Of a DNA stretch of 64,000 nucleotides, positions 1 to 37,309 are shown one piece after another. Origin of the DNA: Cytophagales bacterium (GTDB lineage: Bacteria > Bacteroidota > Bacteroidia > Cytophagales > 172606-1). The notes below the pieces were generated by a model. It was not told the DNA's origin and made no database searches. It saw only the letters and a program-made list of their open reading frames with translations. Each line of letters starts with the position of its first letter. Position 1 is the stretch's first letter. The stretch is from positions 43,827 to 107,826 of the forward strand of contig JAUJMU010000014.1 of assembly GCA_030446715.1 (NCBI GenBank), read 5' to 3'. A program made the position numbers and the translations under genes.

Positions 1-1449
1 GGGCACAGTCATTTTGCCCCGTCCCAGCGCCTGCCCAACATTGTGCTCCTGACGGTGGACGACATGAATTATAATTCGTGCGGCGTGATGGGCAGTCAGG
101 TACCCAATATCACGCCGCATATTGATCAACTAGCCCGTCAGGGAATATTGTTTACGCGGGGATACGTTTCCAGCGCCGTTTGTGTGCCCAGCCGGACTTC
201 GATCATGACCGCTTGTTACCCGCACCGGGTAAGCCAGTGGGACGGTTTTGGGAAGCCGGCCTCGGCCGAGAAGGTCCCGCAAGCGGGTTACAACATTAAA
301 AAGGGAACCCCAACGCTGACCAAAGCCCTGAAGCAGGCGGGGTACGTTACCGGTATTCTGGCCAAACCCAACCATCACCTGCCTGAGGAAGAATTTCCCT
401 GGGATGTTGTGTACGGACACCATGCGTACGAAGAATTAAAACACGGCCGGGATGCGGAACTGTACGGCAAGCGTACGGAAGAAGTGATTCAGTTGGCCAA
501 AGGGCAAAAGAAACCATTTTTCCTGGTAGCCAATGCCGGCGATCCGCATCGGCCCTTTCCCCAGAGTACGGATGAGGCAAACTCGGTCGCCAAAGGTAGA
601 TTCGGCGGGGCCATGCCGCTGCCCTCGAAAGTGTATCAACCGGACGAGGTACCGGTTCCCGCCTTTTTGCCTAACCTGCCGGACGTGAGAAAAGAAGTAG
701 CCCTGTACTACTCAGGCGTAAAAAGAGCCGATGATATTGTGGGCAGTGTACTGAAAAAACTAAAGGAAGCCGGGGTGGAAAATGAAACGATTATCGTCTT
801 TTTGTCCGATCATGGCGCCCCCTTTCCTTTTGCCAAGGAATGTTCCTACATGAACAGCACCCGCACGCCAGTTATTGTGCGTTGGCCCGGCCATGTTGCA
901 CCGGGAAAAATCGACAGCACCCGGCTCATCTCCGCGCTGGACGTTGCGCCCACCCTGCTCGATTTGCTTGAACTGCCGCCTATGCCCGGCGTGGACGGTC
1001 GTTCGTTTAAGCCCTTGCTCTACGGCAAAGAACAAAAGAACCGGGACCGGGCTTTTACCGTGTATCACTTTACCCCCGGCCATGAGCCTATTCAGCAGCG
1101 GGCCGTAACCTATCACCAATACACCTATGTTTTTAACGCCTTTGCCGCCGAGAAGCAGTTGTTTACTTGCGGCGATCCGAAGGGCGGGCTTACGTATAAA
1201 GCCATGAAAGAAGCGGCCAGAGAGGCTCCGGAGCTGGCCAAAAGAGTGCAGTTTTTCGATTACCGTACTCCCGAGGAAATGTACGACGACCAGCAAGACC
1301 CGGATGCGTTAACCAACCTCATGGATGACCAATCGAAGAAAAAGCTGATCCGGGACATGCAGCAGATGCTCTTGGCCTGGATGCGGGAAAAGGAAGATCC
1401 TTTGTTGCCGTATTATGTGCAGTACCTGCATGGGCAAAAGCAAAAGTAA
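1..1449 (+). CDS. sulfatase, 5' end outside window
   Basis: Sulfatase of the alkaline-phosphatase-like superfamily that hydrolyses sulfate esters, probably on a glycan. The frame is open from base 1, so the true start and any signal peptide lie upstream; the GTG at 43 is internal. The core begins PNIVLLTVDD, whose acidic pair binds metal. The CVPSR motif at 181-195 contains the cysteine that becomes formylglycine. A later SDHGAPF stretch fits the second metal-binding site. It is first of six co-directional exported enzymes, with 90 bases to the next gene. The substrate cannot be read from the sequence. Family assignment is secure. Confidence 0.93.
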   Translation, partial: GHSHFAPSQRLPNIVLLTVDDMNYNSCGVMGSQVPNITPHIDQLARQGILFTRGYVSSAVCVPSRTSIMTACYPHRVSQWDGFGKPASAEKVPQAGYNIKKGTPTLTKALKQAGYVTGILAKPNHHLPEEEFPWDVVYGHHAYEELKHGRDAELYGKRTEEVIQLAKGQKKPFFLVANAGDPHRPFPQSTDEANSVAKGRFGGAMPLPSKVYQPDEVPVPAFLPNLPDVRKEVALYYSGVKRADDIVGSVLKKLKEAGVENETIIVFLSDHGAPFPFAKECSYMNSTRTPVIVRWPGHVAPGKIDSTRLISALDVAPTLLDLLELPPMPGVDGRSFKPLLYGKEQKNRDRAFTVYHFTPGHEPIQQRAVTYHQYTYVFNAFAAEKQLFTCGDPKGGLTYKAMKEAAREAPELAKRVQFFDYRTPEEMYDDQQDPDALTNLMDDQSKKKLIRDMQQMLLAWMREKEDPLLPYYVQYLHGQKQK

Positions 1450-1539
1450 TTGATGATTCATCCTTTACGCGGGGTTTCAAATGAACTTAATTTCTAAAGT
1501 CACCGGGTATACACCCATTCAGATATACCTGATCTGATC

Positions 1540-3006
1540 ATGAAAAAAAATACAGCGCTAATCGCCTTACTTCTTATTGTTTTCAGCCAATTGCCTACTC
1601 AGGGGCAATCCTATTCTTTGCCTTCTTCCAAACCGGCTGCTCCCGGGTGGTCTTTACGCCAGCCTATTTATGAAGCGAATATATCCCGTATGACCCGGGA
1701 AGGAACGTTTAAAGCGTTTGAAGCGCAGCTACCCCGCTTAAAAGCACTGGGGGTAGGAATTATATGGCTCATGCCCATTCACAAAAGAGGGCAATTCCGG
1801 GTGTCGGCTCAACTGATCGACAGTTTAGACGGAGCCCCTATTCCCGTTCCCGAAGCCTACCGCGTTTTAAATGGTAAACAGACCAGCCCTTACTGCATCT
1901 CCGATCATTACTCCATCCATCCGGAGTTTGGCACAAAGGAAGATTTCCGGCACTTGGTGGATGCCATTCATCAGCAGGGCATGTATATCATTCTGGATCT
2001 GGTTGTTAACCACACTTCCTGGGACCATTTATTTATTCAACAGCACCCGGACTTCTATGCCCGGAATCAAAATGGCGCGGTCGCGTATACCAAGCCCTGG
2101 AAAGATATCGCGCAATTGGATTGGGAAAATAAGGCCATGCGGGAATACATGCGGGACGTGTGCCGGTACTGGGTACGCGAAATGGACGTGGACGGCTTTC
2201 GTACGGATGTAGCCGACCGGGTTCCGTCGGGGTACTGGACCTGGCTGCGGGCCGAATTACACAAAATCAAACCCGTTTTTTTGCTGGCTGAAGGCTTTTC
2301 TCCGGCCGTACATCCTGCCCACGACGTTTCCTATGACTGGTTTCTCCCGCCGGCTTTCTGGTCGGTAGTAGAAGGGAAAAAAACCGTTGCGGTTATTGAT
2401 TCCCTGCTAGCCTGGGAAAGGAGGAAGTATCCGAAGGGCGTGCTGAAAATGCGGCACGCGACCAATCATGATGTACACGGGAAAGGTTATGCTTATCCAA
2501 GTATGGCCGATTATTACGATCAGGTTTTAGAAAAAACCTATTTTGAGCAGGTCCCATTGGTTGAAAAATTTGGGGAAGGTCTTAAAGCTTTTATGGTGCT
2601 CTCGGCCACCTTACCCAATAGCGTGCCGATGATCTGGAATGGCCAGGAAATAGGCATATTGCAAAAAACTCCTTCCGTAATCACCTGGCAGGATAATGAA
2701 TGGGTAGATTTCTATCAAAAGCTTTTTACGTTATATAGAACCAACCCTGCCTTTACGGCAGGAGATTTCACCCGCCTGTCTACCGGTCAGAATGAAAAAG
2801 TATATGCCTTTGTCCGCAAACACAACCGAAACAAAGTACTGGTAATGATTAACTGCTCCCCGGAAAACCAGCCGGTAACCTTTAAAATGGATGGCAACCC
2901 TGGGATGGGAAAGGATTTTTTCTCGGGCAAAACCCACCCGTTTTCAAAAAACAACAAAATGGTCCTGGAGCCCTGGGCTTCCCGGGTCTATGTATATCAT
3001 CAGTAG
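1540..3006 (+). CDS. GH13 alpha-amylase family glycoside hydrolase
   Basis: Exported enzyme of 488 residues acting on alpha-glucosidic bonds. A hydrophobic signal peptide covers about residues 1-23 (cut near QGQS). The four conserved GH13 regions are present: DLVVNH (153-158); GFRTDVAD (219-226) with nucleophile D223; LLAEGF (248-253) with acid/base E251; and ATNHD (307-311) with stabiliser D311. A C-terminal beta domain follows from about residue 400. It lies between two sulfatase genes on the same strand, so it probably helps break down the same sulfated or mixed glycan; that is inference. Exact specificity (amylase, glucosidase or transferase) cannot be settled. The start was chosen because it gives a clean signal peptide. 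Confidence 0.92.
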   Translation: MKKNTALIALLLIVFSQLPTQGQSYSLPSSKPAAPGWSLRQPIYEANISRMTREGTFKAFEAQLPRLKALGVGIIWLMPIHKRGQFRVSAQLIDSLDGAPIPVPEAYRVLNGKQTSPYCISDHYSIHPEFGTKEDFRHLVDAIHQQGMYIILDLVVNHTSWDHLFIQQHPDFYARNQNGAVAYTKPWKDIAQLDWENKAMREYMRDVCRYWVREMDVDGFRTDVADRVPSGYWTWLRAELHKIKPVFLLAEGFSPAVHPAHDVSYDWFLPPAFWSVVEGKKTVAVIDSLLAWERRKYPKGVLKMRHATNHDVHGKGYAYPSMADYYDQVLEKTYFEQVPLVEKFGEGLKAFMVLSATLPNSVPMIWNGQEIGILQKTPSVITWQDNEWVDFYQKLFTLYRTNPAFTAGDFTRLSTGQNEKVYAFVRKHNRNKVLVMINCSPENQPVTFKMDGNPGMGKDFFSGKTHPFSKNNKMVLEPWASRVYVYHQ

Positions 3007-3118
3007 CCGCTTTGATTGATTCCCTTCAACTAAAACCGAGTATTGGTTTTACTTACCCATAAAAATGATGTTATTGACTTGTAGTTTACAGCGCTTAAGC
3101 AGCGTCCTGCCGGATGGA

Positions 3119-4585
3119 ATGAGAACAGCCCGGTGTTTTTTTGCCCTGCTGCCCTTAGCGCTGCTTTTTTCCCAGGCTTGTAGTTCCCCCCGAAAGCCGA
3201 AGGCAACCGAAGCACCGCTCAACATTCTGCTGGTTACCGCCGATGACCTGGGCCTGCAACTGGGTTGCTACGGAGACAGCGTAGCCCGCACGCCGAATCT
3301 GGACCGGTTTGCCCGGCAAGCGGTGCTGTTCCGCAACGCCTACGTGACGCAAGCCTCCTGCAGCCCTTCCCGCAGCAGCATGCTTACCGGGCTGTATCCG
3401 CACCAGAACGGGCAGGTTGGCTTGTCGCACCTGGGTTACCAGATGTTTAACCACATCCGGACCCTGCCGCAACTCCTCAAAGCACAGGGGTATACCAATG
3501 CCATTATCGGCAAACTGCACATTCAGCCGGAAAATAATTTTCCTTTTGATTACGCCGACTTAGATGCCCGTAAGACGCGGGACGTAGCCGAAGTGGCCGC
3601 CAGGGCCCGAACGTTTATGGATACCGTCAGCCGACCGTTCTTCCTGATGGTCAACTATTTCGATCCGCACGTGGAGTTAATCCCGCAGGTAAAAGGCATC
3701 CCCCGAAACCCTTTTACGCCCGACCAGGTAAAGGCTTTCTCTTTCCAGGGAATTGATACACCGGCCGAACTGGCCCGGATTGCCAACTATTACAGTTGCA
3801 TCGAACGGCTGGACGCCGGATTTGAACTGCTCCTGCAGGCCCTGACAAAGGCCGGGAAGGCGGAAAACACCCTGGTTATTTTCCTGGGGGATCACGGGCC
3901 GCCTTTCGTGCGGGCTAAAACGGCCTGCTACGAAGCGGGACTGAAAATTCCCTTCCTGGTGCGCTGGCCCGGCAAACAGCCCCGGGAGTACCCCGGTTTG
4001 GTCAATACGACTGATATTCTCCCCACCCTGGCGGAGGCAGCACACCTTGCCGTGCCCGAAAACCTGCCGGGCCGGAGCCTCAGACCCGTGCTGGAGCACA
4101 AGTCCTTTGAAGACCGTCCCTACCTGTTCGGGGAATTCACCGCCCACGCCCCCGGCACCTTTTACCCGATGCGCTCCGTGCGGGATAAGCAATACAAGCT
4201 CATTGTCAACTATTTGCCCGGCCTGCCTTTTCCCAGTTTGAGTGTGGATGGGGATATAGCGTGGCAGGAATCGCGGAACGAAAAATTCGACGGAACCCCC
4301 GTACGCCAGGTATTTGACCGTTATCAGAACCGTCCACCCCTGGAGTTGTATAACCTGGCAACCGATCCCCATGAGTTTACCAACCTGGCCGGCGATCCGC
4401 AATACGGGCCGGTGATTACCCGGTTGCGCCAGGCCCTGGTCCAGTGGCAAGGGCAAACGGGTGACCCCTTGCTGGACAGCACCGGGCTGGCCCGGATGGT
4501 GGAGGTGCACCAAGCCATCCAGTCAGCAGCCCGGGCTGATCCCAATTACAAGGTTAAAGCCCCGATCCGGTGGACCGACTATTAG
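3119..4585 (+). CDS. lipoprotein sulfatase
   Basis: Formylglycine-dependent sulfatase of 488 residues. An in-frame ATG at 3065 would add 18 residues, but the ATG at 3119 puts a standard lipoprotein signal at the terminus, ending in SQAC with lipidated Cys21, so 3119 is preferred. The core starts NILLVTADD and the CSPSR motif has the modified cysteine at about residue 81. GDHGPPF provides the later metal ligands. The protein is probably anchored to the outer membrane or surface-exposed. It follows the GH13 gene by 112 bases and precedes the next sulfatase by 43, suggesting one operon. Substrate is unknown. Confidence 0.93.
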   Translation: MRTARCFFALLPLALLFSQACSSPRKPKATEAPLNILLVTADDLGLQLGCYGDSVARTPNLDRFARQAVLFRNAYVTQASCSPSRSSMLTGLYPHQNGQVGLSHLGYQMFNHIRTLPQLLKAQGYTNAIIGKLHIQPENNFPFDYADLDARKTRDVAEVAARARTFMDTVSRPFFLMVNYFDPHVELIPQVKGIPRNPFTPDQVKAFSFQGIDTPAELARIANYYSCIERLDAGFELLLQALTKAGKAENTLVIFLGDHGPPFVRAKTACYEAGLKIPFLVRWPGKQPREYPGLVNTTDILPTLAEAAHLAVPENLPGRSLRPVLEHKSFEDRPYLFGEFTAHAPGTFYPMRSVRDKQYKLIVNYLPGLPFPSLSVDGDIAWQESRNEKFDGTPVRQVFDRYQNRPPLELYNLATDPHEFTNLAGDPQYGPVITRLRQALVQWQGQTGDPLLDSTGLARMVEVHQAIQSAARADPNYKVKAPIRWTDY

Positions 4586-4628
4586 CCTGCCCGAGCAAGC
4601 ATTCCGCAAATCCCATCCCTATTTTAGA

Positions 4629-6113
4629 ATGATGAAAGGTAGTATAGCCATATTGTTTCTTCTGCTGCTTGCCTGTAGCAGTCGCCCTACCACCCAAGCG
4701 GGCAAGGCCCCGGCCCAATCCCCGGAAAAGGCCCTGCCCAACATCGTGTTCATCCTGGCCGACGACATGGGCTACGGCGATGCGGGCTGCTACAATCCCG
4801 AATCCAAAATACCTACCCCGGCCATTGACCGCCTGGCCGCCGAAGGCATCCGGTTTACCGATGCCCACGCGCCGGGCGCCTGGTGCGTGCCTTCCCGCTA
4901 CGGCTTCATCACCGGACAGTACCCGTTGCGGGCGAACATGGATTTAAAGCGCGGCAGTCTGGTAGCCAAAGACCGCCCGACGGTTGGTTCACTCCTGCAA
5001 AGGAATGGGTACCGCACGGCCATGATCGGCAAGTGGCACCTGGGCTTTGAAGGCGTGAGTGACTGGAATAAAGTAGACTACCGCCAACCTTTCCGGGGCG
5101 GGCCCGTGGACCGGGGTTTTGATTATTTCTTCGGCATGCACGCTTCGCTGGATATTCCGCCCTATTTCTACCTTGAAAACAACCGTTGTGTAACTGCTCC
5201 TGCCGATTCGGTTGCCGGACACCAGAGCCCGGGGGCCACTACTGCTATTTCAGGGGCCTTCTGGCGGGGCGGGAAAATTGCCCCGGACTTTAAGCATCAG
5301 GAAGTACTGCCCACTTTCACCCGCAAAGCGGTTTCCTTTATGGAAAGCCACGTGAAAGAACAAAGAAAGCAACCCTTCTTTTTGTACGTTGCCCTGACTG
5401 GCCCGCATACGCCCTGGGTAGCCCAGCCGCCCTTTGCCGGAAAAAGTGCCGCCGGTGAATACGGCGATTTTACCATGCAGGTGGATTACTCAGTGGGCGA
5501 GATTCTTAAGACATTAGAAAAGCTGGGGATTGCCGAAAATACCCTGGTTATCTTTTCCAGCGACAACGGCCCGGTGTGGTTTACCGAAGACGTGCAAAAG
5601 TTTAATCACCGTGCTACGGCTAACTTCCGCGGGATGAAAGTAGATGCCTGGGAGGGTGGTCACCGGGTGCCATTCATTGCCCGCTGGCCCGGCAAAATCG
5701 GGCCCAACACAACTTCCGCGCAACCACTCTGTTTTACCGACATGCTGGCTACCTTTGCGGCGGTAGTGGGCGACAGCCTTCCGCCAAATGAAAAGAGGGA
5801 CAGTTACGATATGCTGCCGGCTTTGCTGAACAAAGGCACAGCCCAGCGCAAGGGTCTGGTAGTGGAGGGGCACACGGTGCGGGAAGGCGACTGGAAACTG
5901 ATCTTTGGCAGTGGCATGGGCGTCCTGCACCGGCAATACGGCAAGGGAAACGCGCCGGTGGGGAAAGGGGAGCTGTATAACTTGCATGAAGATCCTGCCG
6001 AGACCCGTAATCTATACGACACCCACCCGGAAAAGGTGGCCGAACTCACCCGGCGCATGGAGCAGTACCGGGCCGAAGGCAGTGCTGCTTCTGAATCTCA
6101 TTCCCATAAGTAA
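4629..6113 (+). CDS. lipoprotein arylsulfatase-like enzyme
   Basis: Sulfatase of 494 residues, nearer in pattern to arylsulfatase A than its neighbours (FILADDMGYGDAGCY near the N terminus). The frame is open further upstream, overlapping the previous gene, but the ATG at 4629 (or 4632) begins a short lipoprotein signal, LLLLAC, with lipidated Cys16. CVPSR has the formylglycine cysteine at residue 86, GKWHLG supplies further active-site residues, and SSDNGP the second metal site. A G-x-x-R-x-G-K-x-D-like segment (FRGMKVDAWEGG) is typical of arylsulfatases. It sits 60 bases before the GH36-like gene. Substrate is not known. Confidence 0.93.
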   Translation: MMKGSIAILFLLLLACSSRPTTQAGKAPAQSPEKALPNIVFILADDMGYGDAGCYNPESKIPTPAIDRLAAEGIRFTDAHAPGAWCVPSRYGFITGQYPLRANMDLKRGSLVAKDRPTVGSLLQRNGYRTAMIGKWHLGFEGVSDWNKVDYRQPFRGGPVDRGFDYFFGMHASLDIPPYFYLENNRCVTAPADSVAGHQSPGATTAISGAFWRGGKIAPDFKHQEVLPTFTRKAVSFMESHVKEQRKQPFFLYVALTGPHTPWVAQPPFAGKSAAGEYGDFTMQVDYSVGEILKTLEKLGIAENTLVIFSSDNGPVWFTEDVQKFNHRATANFRGMKVDAWEGGHRVPFIARWPGKIGPNTTSAQPLCFTDMLATFAAVVGDSLPPNEKRDSYDMLPALLNKGTAQRKGLVVEGHTVREGDWKLIFGSGMGVLHRQYGKGNAPVGKGELYNLHEDPAETRNLYDTHPEKVAELTRRMEQYRAEGSAASESHSHK

Positions 6114-6173
6114 ACTTTACCCGGTATACCTGGCTACCGGGCACCGGGCGGGTTGTGTCACTTCTAATCGGTT

Positions 6174-8261
6174 ATGACTAAACTTTTTTTTAAAATCGCC
6201 CTGGCGCTGGTTTCGCTTTTTCTCGCGAGCCCGCCGCTGCGTGCCCAGCAGCAGACTACTTACCTGGACTGCTCCGTGCAGTGGAACGACAGCCTGCTGG
6301 TGTTGGAAAACAGCCGGATCAGGCGGACCTTTTACCGGAACGGTGGCAACCTGGTCACCAAATCGCTTACCGATAAGCGAGCCAACCACGTTTGGGCGAT
6401 TGAAAACAAGTCTCCCGATGCTGCCTATCCCGGCCTTACCGCCGGGGCGAGCAATGCCGGCTTGCAGGTAGTCCGGCAGCCAGCGAGTCCGCTGGCGCCG
6501 GCCCACCTTGAGGTAAGCCTTACCTGCCGGTGGGGTTCCCTGGAAGTAAAAAGAATCTTCCGGCTTTATCCCGACTGTCCGGCGATTGCCTCCGATTTTT
6601 ACTACCGGGGTCAGGCGGACGCATCCTGGGGAAGCCGTTTGATGCCGGGGCAGGAGCTGGCAGACGAGCCTACGCTGCCGGCAACGGCGAAAGAAACGAC
6701 CGTACCGGTCATTGAACGCCTGCAGTTGCCCGGCAACCACTGGCGTTTTACCAGCGTGCAGTTTTACGATGCCACCGACCAACGGAATACGCTGGTGCAA
6801 ACTACCTCGGCGCTGGGCTACCGCCGGCCGGCGGTGCTGCGGGGTAACCTGCTCTTTGCCGAGGACGGAGTGCAACAGAAAGGCTTCTTCCTGTTGAAGG
6901 AAGCCCCGCCGGCAACCGCCCAGGCCGCTTATCCCGGCGCTGATTTCCTCACTGGTTTTGATGAGGTCAGCGTGGTGGGCGCCGGATTGAGCAGCACTGA
7001 CCTGGAGGCAACCACCTGGAAACGGGGCTACGGCGTAGTAATCGGCGTGTACGGAGCCAGTGAACTGGACAAGCTCACCGCCCTGCGGACCTATCAGAAA
7101 CAGATCCGCCGCCATTTGCCGGAACGCGACGAAATGATTATGATGAACACCTGGGGCGACCGCAACAAAGATGCCAGTGTGGGTGAATCGTTCCTGATGA
7201 AAGAACTGGAGGCAGGCGCCAGACTGGGGATTACCTACCTGCAGATTGATGACGGCTGGCAACAGGGCCTTTCCAAAAATTCGGCCGCGGCTGCCGGGCG
7301 TCTCTGGGATGAGTGGGATGCGGCCAGCTGGCAGCCCCACGCGGAACGTTTCCCCCGCGGACTGGCCCCGGTAGTGAAAAAAGCCGGTGAACTGGGCATC
7401 CAGCTCGGGCTGTGGTTTCATCCAAGCAACGCCAACAGTTACGCCCGCTGGGAAACGGATGCGGGCATTATCATTGGCCTGTACCGCCAGTACGGCATCC
7501 GCACGTTCAAGATAGACGGTATTGAGCTGCCCGACAAAGGGGCAGAAATCAACCTGCGCCGGTTTTTCGAGGCGGTGCTGGCCGCCACGGAGGGGAAAGT
7601 GGTTTTTAACCTCGATGCTACGGCCGGCAAACGCGGCGGGTACCATTTTCTCAATCAGTATGGCAACATCTTTTTGGAGAACCGTTACACGGATTTCGGG
7701 AATTATTACCCGTACTGGACGCTGCGGAATCTGTGGATGCTTTCCCGCTACGTACCTGCCGAGAATTTGCAGATCGAGTTTTTGAACAAGTGGCGCAATC
7801 CCGGTAAGTATCCGGAAGGTGATCCTTTTGCTCCCCTGCACATTCCCTTCGACTATACATTCGCCGTCACGATGATGGGGCAGCCCCTGGCCTGGTTTGA
7901 AGCCAGCAAGTTGCCGGCCGAGGCTTTTACGATTGCCCCTCTGGTAAAAGCTTACCAAAAATGGCAGGCGGACCTGCACGCGGGATGGATATTTCCGGTT
8001 GGCGAAGAACCTTCGGGCCGGAGCTGGACGGGGTTTCAGTCCATCCGTGGCCAGGAAGGCTACCTGCTGGTGTTCCGGGAAAACAACGACCAGGGACAGA
8101 CCAAACTCAAAACGTGGCTTCCGGCCGGGCAAGCCGTGGAACTGACGGCGCTGGCGGGGCACGGGAAAAGTTTTAAGGCCAGAACCGACCCGGAAGGGCG
8201 GCTGGAATTCCGGCTGCCTGCTCCGAACAGTTTTGCCCTGTACCGTTACCGGCTGAAGTAG
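6174..8261 (+). CDS. GH36-like alpha-galactosidase
   Basis: Exported 695-residue enzyme with a signal peptide ending near residue 24 (PLRAQ). The first 300 residues form a beta-rich domain like the N-terminal domain of GH36. A TIM barrel follows with NTWGDR (325-330), QIDDGW (357-362) and FKIDG, where D448 sits at the clan GH-D nucleophile position. A small C-terminal beta domain closes the protein. GH36 enzymes remove alpha-galactose or related sugars. The RYTD segment later in the barrel may hold the acid/base Asp, but this is less certain. Its place among four sulfatases suggests a sulfated alpha-galactoside-containing glycan as target (inference). Confidence 0.85.
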   Translation: MTKLFFKIALALVSLFLASPPLRAQQQTTYLDCSVQWNDSLLVLENSRIRRTFYRNGGNLVTKSLTDKRANHVWAIENKSPDAAYPGLTAGASNAGLQVVRQPASPLAPAHLEVSLTCRWGSLEVKRIFRLYPDCPAIASDFYYRGQADASWGSRLMPGQELADEPTLPATAKETTVPVIERLQLPGNHWRFTSVQFYDATDQRNTLVQTTSALGYRRPAVLRGNLLFAEDGVQQKGFFLLKEAPPATAQAAYPGADFLTGFDEVSVVGAGLSSTDLEATTWKRGYGVVIGVYGASELDKLTALRTYQKQIRRHLPERDEMIMMNTWGDRNKDASVGESFLMKELEAGARLGITYLQIDDGWQQGLSKNSAAAAGRLWDEWDAASWQPHAERFPRGLAPVVKKAGELGIQLGLWFHPSNANSYARWETDAGIIIGLYRQYGIRTFKIDGIELPDKGAEINLRRFFEAVLAATEGKVVFNLDATAGKRGGYHFLNQYGNIFLENRYTDFGNYYPYWTLRNLWMLSRYVPAENLQIEFLNKWRNPGKYPEGDPFAPLHIPFDYTFAVTMMGQPLAWFEASKLPAEAFTIAPLVKAYQKWQADLHAGWIFPVGEEPSGRSWTGFQSIRGQEGYLLVFRENNDQGQTKLKTWLPAGQAVELTALAGHGKSFKARTDPEGRLEFRLPAPNSFALYRYRLK

Positions 8262-8358
8262 TCCCGCCCGTTGCCGTGGCAAAGTGGCTTATCCATCAGC
8301 CGCTGAATACAGATTTATTGCAAGAAACTGCTTAATTTTCAAAACAACTCTTACGCCT

Positions 8359-9966
8359 ATGTTGCCATTTTTCAAAAAAGTAAACCTGTTGGTGCTGAGT
8401 ATGGCTGCCTGCCTGCTCCTGCCGCACCAGATCCGGTCCCAGACCGGGCAAGTACCCACGCCTGTTACGCTTACTAAAGTTCAGGGCGTAAAGCCCCGGA
8501 ACATCGTCTTTATCCTCACCGACGACCACCGCTACGATGCCCTGGGCTTCCTGCACAAACAAACTTTCATCCACACCCCTAACCTGGACAAGCTTGCCCG
8601 GGGCGGGGTGTATCTGCCCAATGCGTTTGTGACCACGGCGCTGTGTTCGCCTTCCCGCGCCTCGATCCTGACGGGTTTGTACGCCCATAAGCACCGGGTG
8701 GTGGACAACAACAATCCGGTGTCCGAAGGGCTGGTGTTTTTCCCGCAGTATTTGCAACAGGCTGGCTACCAGACTGCTTTTGTGGGCAAGTGGCACATGG
8801 GCGGGGAAGGCGACGAGCCGCAGCGCGGCTTTGACCACTGGGTGAGTTTTAAGGGCCAGGGCAGCTACCTGCCGGAGAAAAATGGTCTGAACGTAAACGG
8901 CAAACGCGTGCCTCAGCAGGGCTACATCACCGATGAACTCACTGACTACGCCCTGGAGTGGCTCAAAAGCCGGAAAGACAATAAGCCCTTTCTGCTGTAC
9001 TTGTCGCACAAGGGCGTGCACGCCGACTTTGTACCCGCCGACCGGCACCGGGGCCGCACCAGGGACGACAAGTTTGTGGTCCCGGCGACGATGAATCCGG
9101 ACAACGTGCAGGAAGCGCCCATGTGGGTGCAGAACCAGCGCAACTCCTGGCACGGGGTAGAGTATCCCTACCACTCGGACCTGGACATTGGCCAGTACTA
9201 TAAACGTTACGCCGAGACGCTGCTGGGCGTGGACGAATCGGTGGGCCGGGTGATGGAATACCTTAACGGGAAGGGGCTGCTGGAATCTACGTTGATCGTA
9301 TACATGGGCGACAACGGCTTTCACTTCGGCGAACAAGGGCTCATTGACAAACGGACGGCTTACGAAGCCTCCATGCGCGTGCCCATGATTGCCCACTGCC
9401 CGGAGTTGATCAAGCCCGGCACCACCGTGAAAGAAGTCGTAGCCAACCTTGACGTTGCCCCTACGCTGCTGGAGGCAGCCGGTCTGGAAACCCCGGCGCA
9501 CCTGGACGGCAAAAGTTTTCTGCCCCTCATGCAAGGCAAAAAGGTGCCCTGGCGGGAGGCTTTGCTGTATGAGTACTACTGGGAACGCAACTTTCCGCAG
9601 ACACCTACCATCCACGCCCTCCGGGGAGACCGCTATAAGTACATTCACTACCAGGGCATCTGGGACACCGACGAACTCTACGATTTGCAGGCCGACCCCG
9701 GGGAAAGCAAAAACCTGATTCGCAGCCCCCGGCACCAGCAGGTAGTCAAAGACATGAACCGACAGCTGTTTGAAGTGCTGGGGCAGACTGAAGGGATGTA
9801 CATTCCCCTCAACCCCGACCGGGGCGGCCAGCAGAACAAGCGTCACCCCGGCCGCAGCAAAGCCGCCAGGTTTGGCGATTATATGTTGGGGACACCTGCC
9901 GGTGCCAGTGAAGCGAAACCGGTTGGAAGAGACGCCGGGGCCGCTTCCGGTAGTAAGAAGCAGTAA
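8359..9966 (+). CDS. sulfatase, possibly N-acetylglucosamine-6-sulfatase-like
   Basis: Secreted sulfatase of 535 residues. The frame is open from 8284, but the ATG at 8359 starts a signal peptide running to about residue 27 (HQIRSQ). The core begins RNIVFILTDDHRYDALG, and CSPSR carries the modified cysteine at residue 96. The DDHRYD start and the VVDNNNP segment after the motif recall glucosamine-6-sulfatases; this subfamily call is tentative. GDNGFHFGE supplies later metal ligands. The C terminus carries a basic, Gly/Ala-rich tail of about 50 residues that is probably disordered. It is the last clear enzyme of the locus. Confidence 0.92.
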   Translation: MLPFFKKVNLLVLSMAACLLLPHQIRSQTGQVPTPVTLTKVQGVKPRNIVFILTDDHRYDALGFLHKQTFIHTPNLDKLARGGVYLPNAFVTTALCSPSRASILTGLYAHKHRVVDNNNPVSEGLVFFPQYLQQAGYQTAFVGKWHMGGEGDEPQRGFDHWVSFKGQGSYLPEKNGLNVNGKRVPQQGYITDELTDYALEWLKSRKDNKPFLLYLSHKGVHADFVPADRHRGRTRDDKFVVPATMNPDNVQEAPMWVQNQRNSWHGVEYPYHSDLDIGQYYKRYAETLLGVDESVGRVMEYLNGKGLLESTLIVYMGDNGFHFGEQGLIDKRTAYEASMRVPMIAHCPELIKPGTTVKEVVANLDVAPTLLEAAGLETPAHLDGKSFLPLMQGKKVPWREALLYEYYWERNFPQTPTIHALRGDRYKYIHYQGIWDTDELYDLQADPGESKNLIRSPRHQQVVKDMNRQLFEVLGQTEGMYIPLNPDRGGQQNKRHPGRSKAARFGDYMLGTPAGASEAKPVGRDAGAASGSKKQ

Positions 9967-10023
9967 AAATACTTCCCCCGCTTCCTTTTATTTTACCTTT
10001 ACCGGATCAGCCCCTTTACTGCT

Positions 10024-10182
10024 ATGTTTTTCTCCCTTCGTCCTGTACTGCCTGCACACCAATGGCCGGGTACGCACCCATTAACTGTTCATTCAGGACT
10101 CAGCACCTGGTTTTTCCTGTTCTGCCTGCTGCTGGCCTGCTGCCAGCAGCAGACGGAGGAGCGGGCAGCGGCCAGGAACTAG
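10024..10182 (+). CDS. possible short lipoprotein or remnant of one
   Basis: A 52-codon frame starting 57 bases after the last sulfatase. Its C-terminal half reads as a lipoprotein signal (FFLFCLLLAC followed by CQQQTEERAAARN and a stop). The first 27 residues do not look like a normal signal n-region. It could be a tiny lipoprotein or, more likely, the leftover signal of a lost lipoprotein gene at the end of the sulfatase locus. The bases coding LLLACCQQQ also form an 11-base inverted repeat (10126-10136 with 10142-10152). Confidence 0.3.
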   Translation: MFFSLRPVLPAHQWPGTHPLTVHSGLSTWFFLFCLLLACCQQQTEERAAARN

Positions 10183-10285: not shown

Positions 10286-11527
10286 TTAAGGAGCAGGGGT
10301 CAGATCCTGCCCGTTAACTACTGGACTCAGTTGCACGACCTGGCTGGTGCTGCCCGTCTTACCGGCGTTGTCGGTTACGCTCGAACGGATGGTAACTGAG
10401 CGCTTACCCGGCGGTACGACCAGCGTACCGCCTACTACCCAGCCAAAAGTGGTGCGTACCTTTCCGCTGGGATCAATTTCGCTGCCGGCAATATTGAACA
10501 CGGGAGCCAGGTTGTCCCCTGCCTTAATTACGTTGCCGTTGGGCTGCAAAAGGTCAACGTCGAAGGTAACCCGCAGACCGGTCACAAAGCGGTTTGGCCC
10601 TACTGAAGATTGAGTGCGGTCTTCAATCGTGCCTCGCTCATTCTCCGGGCGGCCCTCACCCGTCTCGTTTACGCCAATGCCCGCTCCGGTTTTATCCAAA
10701 GCCGACACCTGAATGAAGAACAAAGAACCACTAGCCGGAGGCGCCGGGGCGGTGGCCGGACCGGTAGCAACGCTGGAAGGTACACGGGGCGCAACCATCG
10801 TAACGACCGGTCCCTCCGGATCGTCAACGTTATCTCCGGGCTCACTTGCCGGCGTAGCCGGGGTAAGGGCCTGACCACTGGCCTCCCCATTAGCGCCCCT
10901 GGCTACTTTCAATGTGAGTTTATCGGCACCGGTTCTGCCTTCCCCGTCACGCACCGAGACGCTGATGGTAAAGCGGTCTACGCCCTCAGGCAAGGACTCC
11001 AGCACGTGCCAGCCGACCCATAAAGTTACTCCCGCACCGGGCGTGTCATCCGTGCCGGCGATGTTAAACAGGGAAGCCAGGTTCGTGTGCCTGGGAATGA
11101 CCCCACCGTCGGGCTTAATCAAATCTGTATCAAAGGTGACGGTAAGACCGGGAATATTGGGATTGGGACTGCCCAGCAACGCCGGATTACGGATGTTCAA
11201 TCCTTCCCGGGCCGGCACCTGGCCGGCCTGAGCGGTAATAATTTCCAGGTTGAGCGAAAAGCCGCTGCCGTTGAAGCTGCCCGCCCCAATGCTGCCTTCG
11301 CCGGGGGTCACCCGGGCGCCGGCTACGGGAGAGACAATGCGCACCTTGGGGCCGCCTTTACGCGCCGCTTCTGGGGTAGCGGCTGAATCAGGCTTTATCT
11401 GTTCCAGGTACTGACAACCACTCAGGAGCGTACTGAGCGTAAACAGTGAGCCGGCAATCAATTGACGGATGCGGGCAACCGGCCTTGTTCGGGCCGGCAA
11501 ATGGAGTTTGTTGGTTGGAAAATGCAT
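10286..11527 (-). CDS. two-repeat lipoprotein of unknown function
   Basis: A 413-residue protein with a lipoprotein signal ending LLSGC at about residue 38. Two related beta-rich units follow. The first has TVTFDTDLIKPDGGVI then LASLFNIAG; the second has RVTFDVDLLQPNGNVI then LAPVFNIAG. Each ends in a segment about symmetric changes under VTIRSSV- or FTISVSV-like strands, and a Pro/Ala-rich linker joins them. I do not recognise the family. It is probably an outer-membrane-anchored, beta-sandwich protein. It is transcribed towards the sulfatase locus, away from the sigma factor gene, and shares a 376-base divergent upstream region with it. Confidence 0.75.
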   Translation of the reverse strand: MHFPTNKLHLPARTRPVARIRQLIAGSLFTLSTLLSGCQYLEQIKPDSAATPEAARKGGPKVRIVSPVAGARVTPGEGSIGAGSFNGSGFSLNLEIITAQAGQVPAREGLNIRNPALLGSPNPNIPGLTVTFDTDLIKPDGGVIPRHTNLASLFNIAGTDDTPGAGVTLWVGWHVLESLPEGVDRFTISVSVRDGEGRTGADKLTLKVARGANGEASGQALTPATPASEPGDNVDDPEGPVVTMVAPRVPSSVATGPATAPAPPASGSLFFIQVSALDKTGAGIGVNETGEGRPENERGTIEDRTQSSVGPNRFVTGLRVTFDVDLLQPNGNVIKAGDNLAPVFNIAGSEIDPSGKVRTTFGWVVGGTLVVPPGKRSVTIRSSVTDNAGKTGSTSQVVQLSPVVNGQDLTPAP

Positions 11528-14038: not shown

Positions 14039-15018
14039 ATGAAATTAAAGCTTATCCACCGGTTCTTTCGTTAAGCGTTACGCCCGGCAATCGTATAACG
14101 GGGCCAATTGCCACTTTCCTGCCTTTAGGCGTACTCACTTTCTTCTGGGTCTTGCCGGCTGCCGGGAGGATGAGGCGGGCACGCCCAAAGAGGCACCTGA
14201 TGCCGGACAGGTGAAACTGGCTACCAGCCCCACCCTGGGGTACTTACCTGACTGACGGGCTGGGCAACACCCTCTATCTGTTTACCCGGGATGCGAGTGG
14301 CACCAGTAACTGCTCGGGTAACTGCGCCACCATCTGGCCGGTGTATTACGCCGAAAATGTATCGGCGGGCAGTGGCCTGGAAGGGATTGATTTTGGCACC
14401 ATTACCCTTCCCGATGGAAGCAGACAAACCACTTATAAAGGCTGGCCGCTCTACTACTACGCCCCGGGTGGCGTGAGAGAGGAGGCGGGTGAAACCCGGG
14501 GAGAAGGCGCCAGCAACAACGCGTGGTTTGTAGCTAAACCCGATTATACCTTGCTGCTGGCAGCTGGCCAGACCATCCCGAATAACGCTACCGGACAGCC
14601 CGAATCCAAACGTTACCTGGTGGACGAAAAGGGCTTTACGCTCTACTACTTCGAGCGTGACACAGTGGCCAACCAAAGTCAGTGCACGGGTGGTTGCATT
14701 TCGGCCTGCCCCCTCTACTACCGGGAAGCCATCAAAGGTCCCTCTGCCCTTTCTGCCGCTGACTTTAGCTCAATTACCCGACCGGACGGAATGCGACAAA
14801 CCACTTACAAAGGTCGTCCTTGTACTACTTTTGCCCTCCAGACGGACAAAGCGGGCGGCAACGGGAATTGCGTGGGGGAGACGAAAGGTCACGGCACGAT
14901 TGGAGCTGGGGGCCTGTGGTTTGTTCTGGACCCGGCCCTGCAAAGGCTTGACCATGTAATGCCCGGCCATATATGGGAGGAGCAGGCATCAGCTTCTCTC
15001 CCATTCTCCCTGAACTAA
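14039..15018 (+). pseudogene. decayed lipoprotein with COG4315-type repeats
   Basis: Remains of a secreted lipoprotein with repeats of the Lipoprotein_15/COG4315 type (unknown function; seen in LTLYLF...C..GCA..WP units). The likely ATG at 14039 reads MKLKLIHRFFR then TAA. A membrane segment in another frame (PIATFLPLGVLTFF) must shift to reach the lipobox LLGLAGC. At 14237-14240 a run of four G breaks the frame again: three G would join ATSPTLG to TYLTDGLGNTLYLF. From there the frame stays open to 15018, with two repeats (LPDGSRQTTYKGWPLYYY and RPDGMRQTTYKGRP). At 14815-14835 an expected PLYYF reads PCTTF, explained by one lost and one gained T. The last residues are read from transposon-derived sequence. 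Confidence 0.75.
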
Positions 15019-15229
15019 CTCCAACCGGTAATCATCAGGGCGTGGATGCCCAACCCGCTGCCCGGTTGAGCCAGTGTTCCGGCTCCTTTGAGTGCTTTCA
15101 GGACTACTTTGGTCTTGAACTGCGCCTCGTGAAGCGTCGGGTTGCTTTGCTCATTGTTGAACATTTTGTAGGAATAAAGTATTGCAATCAAGTTATTCTG
15201 CCCGTACGGTTTCAGGGGAGCACTATACA
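15015..15229 (-). mobile_element. IS3-family remnant, left end and start of orfA
   Basis: On the minus strand the 49-codon frame 15164-15015 reads QFKTKVVLKALKGAGTLAQ then LGIHALMITGW and stop. It lines up without gaps with the N-terminal helix-turn-helix of IS3 OrfA proteins (EFKAKVALEAIKGEKT ... YGVHPNQITQW). About 65 bases upstream the sequence TGTATAGTGCTCCCCTG (15229-15213) looks like an IS3-type terminal repeat, beginning TG. Everything beyond the first 49 codons is missing: the remnant stops where the decayed lipoprotein frame begins. No partner inverted repeat was found. Confidence 0.65.
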
Positions 15230-15272
15230 GAATGGATTGCTATGAGGTTGAAAGGTGAAAGCATGAGGTAAG

Positions 15273-15329
15273 CCGGAGTGATTTTAACGTGAACAGGAAA
15301 TTTAGTCCTGATTTTCAAAATCACTCCGG
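15273..15329. terminator. hairpin at 3' end of decayed receptor gene
   Basis: Perfect 13-base inverted repeat (15273-15285 with 15317-15329), with a smaller inner stem AGGA/TCCT in the 31-base loop. It overlaps the last codons of the receptor pseudogene and faces the IS remnant. It may terminate leftward transcription. Confidence 0.5.
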
Positions 15330-18067
15330 TCGGCACCGTTGGTAAAGTGACGGAGGTTGCAGGTAAACGTGAGCATGAAGTAACGCTGCAAAAACAGTTG
15401 ATTGCACATCTTCCACGTACAGTTCGGTGACATTGCGCCGGATGCTGTTGTTCTGCTCAAGCAGGTCAAAGCCACCAGGCTGATCTCGCCCCGCTGGTTT
15501 TTAAACAGCTTCTCTGCCCAGGCTCATATTCCAGAGCAGGTAGTTGTTGTCGAAGCCCGCCGAAAGGCCCGCATTGACCCGGTGATAGAGTTCGGTGCGG
15601 AACACAAATCCCTGCCACACGATCCAGTCGAGTTTCAGGTGCGTCGTCTGGTTGAAAAAGTTATTGTTCAAAGCGGGCCGCAGGGAGTTGTTCACCGTTG
15701 TGTAGCCCGACCGGGTGGAGAGGGTAAAATCGAGCTTTTCGCTGATATTGCTGCTCAGCGTGACGCCGGCCCTGAAGTTGCCGGTTTGTACCGTGTTCAT
15801 TTCATCGTTGATCATGCCCGGCCGGCTGGCAAAGTTGATTGAGCCGTTTAAGTTGAGGTTCGTCTTGATGGGGTTAACCGGCCTTCCGTAGCTCACGTAG
15901 GAGTGGAGGTTGTAATAGCCGTTCAGGTTCACGGGGCGGGAGAGCTGCGAACCGCGCTGAAGCACAATCTCATCGCTTAACTGGATAGGCTGGGCAGCAA
16001 TCAGGGTACTGCTTGATATATAGTTGCGGGCAAAGGTGCCCTCCAACATGCCAAACAAAGAGGTGTTCGTTTCGGGCTGGTGCATCCGGTAGCGGGCCCT
16101 CATCCAGTGCTGGTACGACTGCGCCAGATCGGGGTTGCCGGTCCGGAGCTGGAGCGGGTTGGTGTTATCAATCACGTTCTGCAACTGCTGCACGGAGGGG
16201 GCCGTGGTCCAGGTGCGGTAATCGAAATGGAAGCTGCGGGAGGAAGAAAACTTGTAATCAATCTCCACCGAGGGCAGCACGCTGGTAAAGGTGCGTTTGA
16301 GCACGAGCGGCCGGGGAAATACCTGATCATTCTGCAGGGCGGCATGCTGGTACTGGCTTTCCAGTTCTAGGTGCAGTTTTTCGGAATTGAACTGATAGCC
16401 CGCCTCCAGTTCCTGGGTCAGGTAATTGCTCCCGAAGGTATTGCTCAGCAGCGGGCTGAGTTCACTGTAGCTTCCGGTTTGCTCCGAGAAATCGAAGGTC
16501 CGTTTATCCGAATCATTTTGCCGGTTGCCGATTTCGTATCCCAACTCCAGCCGGCTCTGCTTACCCAGCGGTTCCTGGTAGGAGATTTCGCCCTCCCAGG
16601 TAAAACCGCTCCGATCGTTGCGCATGTACTGGTTAAGGATAGTGGCCGTATCGGCACCCTCGTAGAAAAGGTTCTCCGCCAGCCGGTACCCGTTGCCGGC
16701 AGCATTGCCCAGGGCATTGTGCAGCCGGAACGTTACCCCCCGGCCCCGGTCATTGAACCGGTGGTTGTAGAGCAGGCTGCTGCGGAAATTGTACCCCCGG
16801 TTGTCGGCATTTGACTGGTTTTCGGTCTGGTTGAGCGGACCATTGCCCGTCACCGTACGGCCGAAGAAGTAATCCTCGTCTTTTCCCTTTTCCACCGACA
16901 GGTCCGGCCGGAAAAGCAGCCGGTTCCGCTTATCGGGTTTGTAGTCGATGCGGGCATCGAACCGGTGAGTGGCGTCATCGTCGGTGCTGCGGCTGTTTTC
17001 CGAATAGATTTGCCCCGGGTCAGCGGCAAGCACGTAGTCCCGCTGCCGCGACCGGGCGATCTGGTTTTTTCGCCTTGTGTAGAAATAACTGCCGCTGGCC
17101 TCTATTTTTTTGCCCCACTTTTCGCTGTAGTTGATGCCGAGGCTGCTGGTGGTAATGATGCCATCCTGCGGCCGGCCGCCTTCCTGTTCGCCCGGATCAG
17201 CTTTGAAGTTGAGGGTATTGATGTTGTTGCTCAGCCCGGTAACCGTTACGCGCCTTTCTTCCCGGAAAAGATTGACGCTGGCACCCAACAGGTACCGTTC
17301 ATTGGTGCCGTAGCCGGCAGTCATCCGGCCAAACTGGCCAGTGCGGCGGTTGCGCCTGGTGACAATGTTGATGGTTTTGATCCTTTCGCCGTCATCGAAA
17401 CCGCCCAGTTCGGCCTGGTCGCTTTGCGGTCGAACACCTGAATCTGGGCAATGACCTCAGCCGGCAGGTTTTCCAGCGCCGTCTGCACATCCTCGCCGAA
17501 AAAAGGCTTGCCGTCCACCAGGATCTGCTGCACGTCTTCGCCCTGCGCCTGTAGCTTACCGTCCTGCATGACAATGCCGGGCATCTTCTGCACCAGTTCG
17601 CCGGCGTTGGCGTCGCGGGTGGTCTTGAAGGCGGCCGCGTTGAACTGCGCGGTATCCCCCTTTTGCTCCCCGGTGGGCACCTGCCCGATCACCCTGATTT
17701 CCTGCAAGGCAGTGGCTTCTTCCTGCAGCAGGATGGTGCCCATGTTCACCGGTTGCAGCACCCGCACGGAACGGGAGTAGGGCTTAAAGCCCAGGTAGCT
17801 GACTTTAATGGTGTATTGCCCCGGCGCCACCCCTTCAAAACGGAAGTTGCCCTGTTGGTCGGTTGCCGTGCCGGCCAGGGTAGAGTCTTTTCCTACACCG
17901 GTGGCCCCGCCCGGTGATTGTTGCAGCACTACCGTTGCCCCGGGTAGGGCGGTGGTATCGGTTCCCATTTTCACGTTTCCCTGAAGGGTATAGCTTTGGG
18001 CGGAGGCCATAAAATGGTGCGCCGGTAAAAGGCAGAGTAAAAAAATAAGGGGAAACAGGTTTTTCAT
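15302..18067 (-). pseudogene. TonB-dependent outer membrane receptor, frameshifted
   Basis: Order of parts: signal peptide (1-24), carboxypeptidase-regulatory-like domain (about 25-110), plug domain (ALQEIRVIGQ to AQIQVFDRK), then an OMP_b-brl_3-type barrel. The first 248 codons end out of frame. Restoring one A at 17423-17425 turns RKATRPNW into RKSDQAELGGFDDGERIKTI and joins the barrel. Three more breaks lie near the C terminus: an extra base near 15510-15516 (giving GREAV-stop instead of LFKNQRGEISLVA), a lost base at 15468-15470 (FDLLEQ) and an extra base near 15389 (TVFQRYFMLTF). The corrected protein would end at 15302. It lies after a LytS/LytT pair on the same strand. Confidence 0.82.
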
Positions 18068-26124: not shown

Positions 26125-27462
26125 CTACAGAACCCGCGTCTTGCCGGGTACCGGAATCGGATAGAAGCCGTCCGGGCCGGGATTAGTCGGCGTCTGGGCC
26201 GTCCAGGAGAATTCCTTCGGCATGATGCTCATTTGGGAATTCATGGCTTCATCCCAGCTGATCACTTGTCCGGAGTACGTAGCCATACGCCCCATGATGG
26301 CAGTCATAGTACTCTTGGCACCAAACTCGGCGTCATTATGCGGTTTATTGTTTTTGATGGCCGCAAACAGCACGTCGTGTTCAGTCTGGTAGGGGTTGGG
26401 ATCCTCCTCGCCACGGTGGCGGTATACTGTGTTGCCCTTCCAGTCGCGGATCATGGCTTTGTTGCCGCCGTCCAGTTCGATGCGGCCTTTGGTACCCACC
26501 AGGGTTTCGGATACGTTGCTGGCCGTGCCCGGATAGTGGCAGCACTGGCTGGACATCACCGCGCCGTCAGCGTACTCAAACTGCACGCTGTGGTGGTCAA
26601 AGATTTCACCGTACTCCTTACCGGTGCGCAGCTGGCGGCCGCCTACACCGTAGGCTTTTACCGGATAGGCATTCTTAAACCAGTTGGTTACGTCAAGGTT
26701 GTGAATGTGCTGTTCGTTGATGTGGTCGCCGCAGAGCCAGTTGAAGTAGTACCAGTTACGCATCTGGTATTCCATTTCGGTCATTTTGGGCTCACGTTGC
26801 CTTACCCATACACCCGGGCTGTTCCAGTACACTTGGGAGGCTACAATGTCGCCGATGGCACCGTCCTGCACCCGCTTGAGGGCCTCCAGGTAGTTGTTCT
26901 GGTAGTGGCGCTGCAGGCCGACCACTACTTTCAGGTTTTTTTTCTTTGCCTCTTCGGCGGCGGCCAGTACCTGGCGGATACCCGGGGCATCGGTGGCTAC
27001 GGGCTTTTCCATGAACACGTGTTTGCCCTGCTTTACGGCTTCTTCAAAGTGGATGGGACGGAAGCCGGGAGGCGTTGCCAGGATTACCACGTCGGCAAGG
27101 GCAATGGCCTGCTTATAGCCGTCGAAGCCGGTAAACCTGGCTTTCTCAGCTACTTTCACCCTGGCCTTTACTTCCGCATTTTCAGAAAGATTTTTGAAAG
27201 AATCATCCAGCCGGTCCTTGAAGGCGTCGGCCATGGCCACGAGTTGCACGTTGGTGTGCCCGGTGTTTTTGAGGGCCTGTACGGCCGCACCCGTTCCGCG
27301 GCCACCGCAGCCAATGAGGGCAATTTTCAGGTTGTCGCTGCCTTTTACGTAGGCACTGGCTTCGAGGGAAAGTCCGCTCAGCACTACGCCGCCGGCAGCC
27401 AGCACGGAGCCTTTCATAAAATCACGGCGGGAGAAGCCGTCTTTGGTATCATGGGTATTCAT
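26125..27462 (-). CDS. Tat-exported Gfo/Idh/MocA-family oxidoreductase
   Basis: 445 residues. The N terminus has a twin-arginine signal, SRRDFMKG (11-18), then a hydrophobic stretch. The NAD(P)-binding Rossmann domain has IALIGCGGRGTG, and HVFMEKPVATDAPG carries the family's conserved EKP Lys. The C-terminal domain has the usual beta-sheet fold (from about 190). Such enzymes oxidise or reduce sugars and cyclitols or act as glycosidases through NAD; Tat export implies a folded, cofactor-loaded enzyme in the periplasm. GTG at 27468 is a possible but less likely start. It lies upstream of the formylglycine-enzyme-like gene on the minus strand relative order. Confidence 0.92.
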   Translation of the reverse strand: MNTHDTKDGFSRRDFMKGSVLAAGGVVLSGLSLEASAYVKGSDNLKIALIGCGGRGTGAAVQALKNTGHTNVQLVAMADAFKDRLDDSFKNLSENAEVKARVKVAEKARFTGFDGYKQAIALADVVILATPPGFRPIHFEEAVKQGKHVFMEKPVATDAPGIRQVLAAAEEAKKKNLKVVVGLQRHYQNNYLEALKRVQDGAIGDIVASQVYWNSPGVWVRQREPKMTEMEYQMRNWYYFNWLCGDHINEQHIHNLDVTNWFKNAYPVKAYGVGGRQLRTGKEYGEIFDHHSVQFEYADGAVMSSQCCHYPGTASNVSETLVGTKGRIELDGGNKAMIRDWKGNTVYRHRGEEDPNPYQTEHDVLFAAIKNNKPHNDAEFGAKSTMTAIMGRMATYSGQVISWDEAMNSQMSIMPKEFSWTAQTPTNPGPDGFYPIPVPGKTRVL

Positions 27463-27497
27463 GGGCACAGAGGGTAAGGGTTAGAAAGTAATTTTAA

Positions 27498-27600
27498 ATG
27501 TTGGATGTTGAATTTTAGATGAGAGATTGATTGCCGGAAGTGTCGGTTTTGCACTCATTTAAAATTCACAATTCAGCATAGCAGGCTGCGCCTGCTATGC
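27498..27600. repeat. intergenic inverted-arm hairpin element 1
   Basis: Arms 27498-27523 and 27554-27579 pair at 21 of 26 positions. Words are of the ATGTTGAATTTTA / TAAAATTCA type. A second, perfect 10-base stem (27576-27585 with 27591-27600) follows and covers the stop codon of the next gene. Lies between two minus-strand genes. Confidence 0.65.
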
Positions 27601-32456: not shown

Positions 32457-32562
32457 GTGGTAAGTGGTGAGTGATTAGTGCTGAGCAGGCAGTTAGCAAA
32501 CTAACGTCAATGGTTATACCCGGCAGCCCCTTACCACTTACCACTTGCCACTTACCACTATT
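32454..32562. repeat. intergenic inverted-arm hairpin element 2
   Basis: Left arm 32454-32480 of AAGTGGT words begins in the glnS stop codon; right arm 32529-32560 of ACCACTT words ends next to the convergent gene's stop. A perfect 12-base stem joins 32456-32467 with 32548-32559. It fills the whole gap between two convergent genes. Confidence 0.7.
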
Positions 32563-34947: not shown

Positions 34948-34960
34948 CTGAGCTGGGGTT

Positions 34961-35135: not shown

Positions 35136-35155
35136 CAATTGTCAATTTCCTTCAC

Positions 35156-35776: not shown

Positions 35777-35852
35777 TACTTTGCTGTATGGGAGATTTTT
35801 CTTATATGAATAATCCTACATAATCAAAAGAAAAGGCACTAAATTTATTGTT

Positions 35853-36493: not shown

Positions 36494-36564
36494 AGCATTG
36501 CCCCTGATCTGGCCCGTTGAGTATCCTCCTTTAAACCATTGAGCTGCCGGATCGTTTTACCGGT

Positions 36565-37308: not shown

Positions 37309-37309
37309 T

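Follow-up and report, generated by a model that had tools for sequence, protein, structure and literature searches.

The first 9966 nucleotides of the stretch analysed here, 64,000 nucleotides from the genome of a Cytophagales bacterium (the window), carry six open reading frames on the + strand that encode four S1 sulfatases (w1 to w4), one alpha-amylase-family enzyme (GH13) and one GH36-like enzyme (GH36a; Table 1). In this genome, which comprises 6.43 Mb in 25 contigs and is estimated to be 98.15% complete, the window spans C3:43827-107826; coordinates marked C3 follow the scaffold numbering and those of the w genes the window numbering. Pfam matches and frames confirm the arrangement given in a first-pass annotation, with all six genes on one strand and short intergenic gaps (43-112 bases, varying with the start chosen for w2). 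All four sulfatases (4/4) combine the PF00884 domain with the Cys-type C-x-P-S-R maturation motif and thus belong to the S1 formylglycine sulfatases. The GH13 protein has an alpha-amylase catalytic domain, with the alpha-amylase 4gkl as best PDB match (188.5 bits) and the motifs GFRTD, AEG and NHD, which presumably carry the catalytic Asp, Glu and Asp. Signal peptides were judged by eye, with no predictor. Lipobox-like signals were recognized in w2 (LFSQAC, if the protein starts at 3119) and w3 (LLLLAC), in agreement with the two lipid-anchored enzymes first described, and Sec-like signals in GH13, GH36a and w4. A run of 100 Ns (C3:43727-43826) immediately precedes the window and removes the start of w1, so the earlier statement that all six enzymes are exported holds for the five of six genes with a readable N-terminus.

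We read the frames of C3:1-54000 and searched their proteins with Pfam. Upstream of the gap there is an adjacent susC/susD pair with an ECF sigma/FecR regulator, as in Sus-type polysaccharide utilization loci (PULs), and among the frames of this region there is one pair of each kind. The first-pass annotation had correctly noted that SusC/SusD are absent from window positions 1-10182 and had proposed an upstream extension in search of SusCD and a regulator, both of which are now placed on the same scaffold. Every upstream frame with an assigned family is on the + strand; besides these, there are four short frames (91-139 aa) on the - strand. Because ECF sigma, FecR, SusC and SusD genes, six full-domain sulfatases and a sulfatase fragment lie upstream on the same strand, we consider it likely that the six window genes form the far end of a PUL that is rich in sulfatases and spans about 52 kb, from C3:1550 to window position 9966. 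The cluster probably removes sulfate groups from a sulfated sugar polymer and breaks the polymer down. The grouping of sulfatases is not due to chance, since 11 of the 52 PF00884 matches in the whole genome (fragments included) fall within C3:3.3-53.3 kb.

Table 1 Features of the locus. Window genes are in window numbering, all others in C3 numbering. Pfam cut-offs were 25 bits for PF00884, 22 bits for Alpha-amylase and 27 bits for Melibiase.
Feature	Coordinates	Strand	Evidence
CARDB, F5/F8 and type IX secretion system (T9SS)-tail domain pieces	C3:61-1335, 34959-36536	+	Pfam
PF05426 alginate-lyase-like protein	C3:1550-2905	+	Pfam
Sulfatase fragment	C3:3539-3943	+	Pfam
Second PF05426 copy, broken into two frames	C3:4131-5047	+	Pfam
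u1, sulfatase	C3:5355-6902	+	Full PF00884
u2, sulfatase	C3:7050-8735	+	Full PF00884
PA14/cytochrome-c protein	C3:8796-11891	+	Pfam
GH36b	C3:12060-14117	+	55% identical to GH36a
Split GH42/DUF4832 protein	C3:14274-15754	+	GH42 match only 22.9 bits
3keto-disac_hyd (DUF1080) protein	C3:16326-17036	+	Pfam
Protein without Pfam match	C3:17166-19019	+	Frame
u3, sulfatase	C3:19016-20596	+	Full PF00884
u4, sulfatase	C3:20674-22122	+	Full PF00884
u5, sulfatase	C3:22379-23605	+	Full PF00884
ECF sigma	C3:24189-24707	+	Pfam
FecR	C3:24906-25931	+	Pfam
SusC	C3:25983-29477	+	Pfam
SusD	C3:29490-30959	+	Pfam; end 12.9 kb left of window, across 100-N gap
Glycosidase-like proteins (likeness by eye), no Pfam match	C3:31124-32731, 36702-38237	+	Sequence reading
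GH28	C3:39389-40858	+	Pfam
u6, sulfatase	C3:40922-42337	+	Full PF00884
Protein without Pfam match, running into gap	C3:42416 onward	+	Frame
w1, sulfatase, S1_8-like by best match	1..1449	+	PF00884 153.7 bits; 5' end cut by scaffold gap
GH13, alpha-amylase-family enzyme	1540..3006	+	Alpha-amylase PF00128 108.1 bits; Sec-like signal by eye
w2, sulfatase, S1_8-like by best match	3065 or 3119..4585	+	PF00884 164.4 bits
w3, lipoprotein-like sulfatase, S1_15-like by best match	4629..6113	+	PF00884 189.6 bits
GH36a, GH36-fold alpha-glycosidase-like enzyme	6174..8261	+	Melibiase 38.3 bits
w4, sulfatase, S1_11-like by best match	8359..9966	+	PF00884 207.4 bits

Two of the window sulfatases and the GH36-like gene have counterparts beyond the gap (w1/u1 44%, w4/u2 67% and GH36a/GH36b 55% identical), which favours one locus despite the gap. 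Omega is 0.18 for GH36a/GH36b (dS 2.1) and 0.16 for w4/u2 (dS 1.6), both pairs being near saturation, and dS of w1/u1 is saturated, hence gives no omega. The two paralogous sets may serve two related tasks. Like other Sus-type PULs of Bacteroidota with ECF-sigma/FecR, the locus has SusC, SusD and a sigma/anti-sigma pair beside co-directional exported carbohydrate-active enzymes and sulfatases; it differs from them in its two diverged sulfatase/GH36 sets and in the scaffold gap mid-locus. It is a locus of a known kind, ordinary for a polysaccharide degrader, and what is new is this member. No description of this gene combination was found among the literature matches listed.

We infer uptake of a common substrate followed by exo action in a set order. 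SusC/SusD would import sulfated oligosaccharides, lipoprotein and periplasmic sulfatases would take O-sulfates off the chain ends, and desulfation would let the GH36-fold and GH13 enzymes cut the alpha-linked sugars thereby exposed. The upstream paralogous set (u1, u2 and GH36b) would probably serve a form of this polymer that differs in linkage or in sulfation pattern. Exo-acting S1_8 and S1_15 sulfatases are described as unblocking glycosidases in the lambda-carrageenan pathway (PMC12549532). The upstream PF05426 lyase-like, GH28 and DUF4832 proteins suggest that the polymer is mixed and probably contains uronic acids. The original proposal of a sulfated alpha-linked glycan is supported as regards a co-directional sulfated-glycan locus; an alpha linkage, to which the two glycosidase classes point, is a possibility.

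The original GH13 call was right by Pfam, and the GH36-like call at the level of the fold. The AlphaFold model of GH36a (pLDDT 88.8, pTM 0.89) can be matched along its entire length to alpha-galactosidases of GH36 (Foldseek E 1.7e-26) and aligns with 2xn0 over 575 residues (Z 30.0, rmsd 4.2, 13% identity), and on this model the protein has the GH36 fold. With GH36 alpha-galactosidases (e.g. 2xn0 and 4fnr) it shares this fold and a DDGW motif, which we take to be typical of GH36, but it is only 10-13% identical to them among the structure matches listed, and it is a putative alpha-glycosidase. Relatives were sought by a pattern scan of an 84,980-species collection and confirmed by tblastn. The resulting 51 loci, Bacteroides and Spirosoma included, are 37-54% identical to GH36a (best segment); 48 are named Bacteroidota or subgroups, and the other three are Planctomycetota, Phycisphaerales and Verrucomicrobiales. 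No relative was found in viral contigs. D359, D448 and E502 are invariant and D507 is at least 90% conserved in an alignment of the window protein with 41 of the 51 loci (42 sequences); D448 and D507 are candidates for the catalytic Asp pair of GH36. The alignment omitted the long fused frames L041, L045, L057 and L061, the broken or partial L058, L060 and L062, and also L020, L046 and L059.

GH3, by the one representative scanned, is the commonest neighbour cluster of the GH36-like loci, with 46 proteins at 23 of the 51. Clusters of SusD and SusC type come next, along with a SusE-like one, and DUF4832 is among the other partners. Sulfatases are present but occasional associates. Of 29 loci that have about 10 kb of flanking DNA, six (five without L059) have a sulfatase-model match, whereas an even spread of the sulfatases counted in those genomes would give 1.95 (simulated P 0.009 for six; in five of the genomes counted at most 54 candidates each were scored). 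The sulfatase matches in L059 (25.9) and L060 reach only about 26 bits. One of the six, an Allomuricauda locus, combines its GH36-like gene with SusC, SusD and six sulfatase frames. Long frames occur in L041 (8120-11968), L045, L057 and L061. In L041, the one of these four frames scanned with Pfam, the GH36-like domain is located behind an FAD_oxidored domain (PF12831), a fusion that suggests that some relatives couple glycoside cleavage to an oxidation step.

A same-genus genome (G001, rated 75% complete) preserves part of the window cluster. Its contig 68 starts inside w2, with the C-terminal 166 codons 92% identical (omega 0.17), and continues with w3, 87% identical over 493 codons (omega 0.16); these values indicate purifying selection, and both genes seem to be under constraint. 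Retention does not extend to the 3' part of the cluster: behind w3 all that is left of GH36a is a remnant, roughly 170-210 bases long and containing stops. Past it, contig 68 has no more blastn matches to C3, and a search for GH13 in this genome gave none at E 1e-60. Contig 66 holds another GH36-like gene, which is interrupted, and is identical to L062 (Cytophagales bacterium isolate YX2bin28) over the 20,000 bases compared; it is mainly this name that places the window genome in the Cytophagales. With about the first 530 bases of the 16S gene as query, three of 13 named genomes gave a long match (Spirosoma telluris 87%, Mucilaginibacter gilvus 84% and Draconibacterium mangrovi 82%) and the others short ones.

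The GH36a remnant behind w3 is one of several results that weigh against a single dedicated locus. In a phylum-wide sample, w4 has relatives in 23 of 395 genomes (its own included), the others being 51-59% identical by best match per genome. One neighbourhood was fetched for each of the 22 other genomes, several of them cut by contig ends; none of the 22 holds a GH36-like gene, and 19 have no second sulfatase in the fetched DNA (three have one). A dedicated w4-GH36 pair, hinted at by both sets in the locus itself and by L021 (where a 56% identical w4 relative precedes the GH36-like gene by two genes), was accordingly rejected as a general rule. GH13 relatives are found in 24 of 390 genomes of the order (E <=1e-60) and four of 395 of the class (E <=1e-70), own genome counted in both; the others are 36-44% identical, and with at most four candidates scored per genome nearer relatives could escape. 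Neighbourhoods of 20 of the 23 other order matches (one stretch short) list no sulfatase homologue (0/20) and SusC/SusD homologues only once (1/20), so GH13 was rejected as a marker of the locus. Clear sulfatases occur at only six of the 51 GH36-like loci, many with short flanks. The join between the window genes and the upstream part depends on the scaffold across the C3:43727-43826 gap. Finally, neither promoter-like sites (four found versus 6.0 expected from shuffles) nor terminator-like sites (15 versus 14.1) are enriched, and such counts leave room for separate transcription of the window genes.

As an alternative, the region may have loosely gathered catabolic genes, its sulfatases and glycosidases, that were acquired independently, are transcribed separately and serve several unrelated glycans. 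This alternative is favoured by the w4 relatives, few of which have another sulfatase and none a GH36-like gene in the fetched DNA, by the GH13 relatives, by the GH36-like relatives, which sit with GH3, SusC/SusD, DUF4832 and others, and by the remnant in the same-genus genome. We nevertheless consider it unlikely, given the short gaps, the single strand of all family-assigned frames, the paralogues on both sides of the gap, and the single SusC/SusD and ECF-sigma/FecR pairs.

Solved structures were compared with w1-w4, whose putative S1 subfamilies are those of the best structure match. Both w1 and w2 match N-sulfoglucosamine sulfohydrolase (SGSH; 4mhx) best, with 149.7 and 218.8 bits, followed by the S1_8A enzyme 9bb9 (108 and 155.3 bits). 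The best matches of w3 are 7oze (268.1 bits) and 6s20 (261.9 bits), with BT3333 (S1_15) among the nearest, and those of w4 are 7ebp (288.9 bits) and 5g2v (281.4 bits), with 9s8y and BT4656 (S1_11) also among the nearest. In w2, a Lys in the segment after the DN/DH motif aligns with an SGSH Arg, presumably at an active-site position, which leads us to lean towards O-sulfate esters as substrates. Sugar-binding residues have been reported for BT3333 (D173, R174 and H225) and BT4656 (D361, R363 and H447), the Asp173/Arg174 dyad of the former binding O4 of a 6S-Gal/GalNAc substrate (PMC6994673). In w3, SLDIPP stands opposite TVDRVP of BT3333, so that the Asp is kept and the O4-binding Arg is replaced by Ile (H225 falls beyond the aligned stretches); the recognition dyad of BT3333-like S1_15 enzymes is thus incomplete, a difference from the published enzyme (PMC6994673). 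Both w4 and u2 keep Asp and Arg (DKR in w4) and have Pro opposite His447 of BT4656 in pairwise alignment, and w4 therefore lacks the full Asp361/Arg363/His447 triad of BT4656-like (6S-GlcNAc) S1_11 enzymes. Both w3 and w4 thus differ from the published enzymes at a recognition residue, and a substrate cannot be transferred from the subfamily labels. From sequence, the S1_8, S1_15 and S1_11 matches cannot decide among sulfated galactan, fucoidan and mucin-type glycan.

These residues also bear on two specific substrates. In a locus for a lambda-carrageenan-like sulfated galactan, the S1_8-like enzymes would carry out 2-O- and the S1_15-like enzyme 6-O-desulfation, and the GH36-like enzyme would be an alpha-galactosidase. 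The lambda-carrageenan enzymes S1_8A and S1_15A are indeed among the matches of w1, w2 and w3, and the GH36 fold is that of alpha-galactosidases. The lambda-carrageenan PUL of Pseudoalteromonas distincta U2A, as described in PMC12549532, likewise has S1_8 and S1_15 beside exo glycosidases and presumably shares the unblock-then-cleave logic, but it has GH110, GH150 and GH2 where this locus has GH36-like, GH13 and PF05426 proteins. GH150 and GH110 are not among the Pfam matches of the scanned locus proteins, four of which had no Pfam match, and no search was made by name; nor was GH2 found by Pfam among the proteins scanned, the weak GH42 match in the split gene aside. The replaced Arg of w3, which in BT3333 binds O4 of GalNAc, and the misfit of PF05426 and GH28 proteins with a pure galactan led us to reject the simple form of this explanation, which we regard as improbable. 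A heparan-sulfate-like locus, with S1_8 as N-sulfamidase and S1_11 as GlcNAc-6-sulfatase, was rejected as very improbable: w1 and w2 match SGSH best in the PDB, w4 has BT4656 among its top matches and Pedobacter heparinus is reported to use S1_8, S1_9 and S1_11 (PMC10154612), but w2 has Lys for the SGSH Arg, w4 lacks His447 of BT4656, and no heparinase or GH88 match was found among the locus proteins scanned.

As to sulfatase maturation, the anSME model TIGR03942 has no match in the genome, whereas PF03781 has five, one of which (C9:19016-19942) has a CxxxxC pair, which we take to be the FGE motif, and is the likelier FGE. A PF03781 protein without the two FGE cysteines is encoded in the window (27595-28629, - strand), adjoining a GFO/IDH/MocA oxidoreductase (26125-27468).

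A glycosidase-like protein and CARDB, F5/F8 and T9SS-sorting domains recur, as copies or pieces, left of the window (C3:61-1335, 31124-32963, 34959-36536 and 36702-38237), where the locus may encode an endo-acting enzyme that is secreted; the sole match of the glycosidase-like protein in a PDB sequence search is a kinase (E 1.4). Broken sulfatase, lyase-like and glycosidase-like genes occur at C3:3280-3943, 4131-5047 and 14274-15754, and elsewhere in the genome at C14:187682-188467, 223278-224475 and 231431-232323, C10:273460-274455 and C7:62358-63319. Either the assembly has frameshifts at these places or a large sulfatase repertoire is decaying. One long - strand frame is antisense to GH36a. 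The cluster ends with w4, and the next long frame (10286-11527) runs on the opposite strand and encodes a lipoprotein-like protein of 413 residues, whose two halves look similar by eye and which has no match in Pfam or NCBIfam. Further downstream, the gene of an outer-membrane receptor-like protein (15501-18067, - strand) consists of two frames that overlap at about 17321, the downstream one with a PF14905 match, which is consistent with a frameshift.

Within the reading of the six genes as the end of a sulfatase-rich PUL, a more specific and tentative possibility is a two-module locus, in which the duplicated sulfatase/GH36-fold set (pairs 44-67% identical) would have diverged to handle two forms of a single sulfated polymer that contains uronic acids, and the changed recognition residues would mark new sulfatase specificities beside a GH36-fold family. 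Substrates are lacking for many sulfatase subfamilies. Here, S1_15-like and S1_11-like enzymes whose recognition residues are altered occur together with a member of a widespread family of GH36 fold, and one substrate found here would help to assign several families together.

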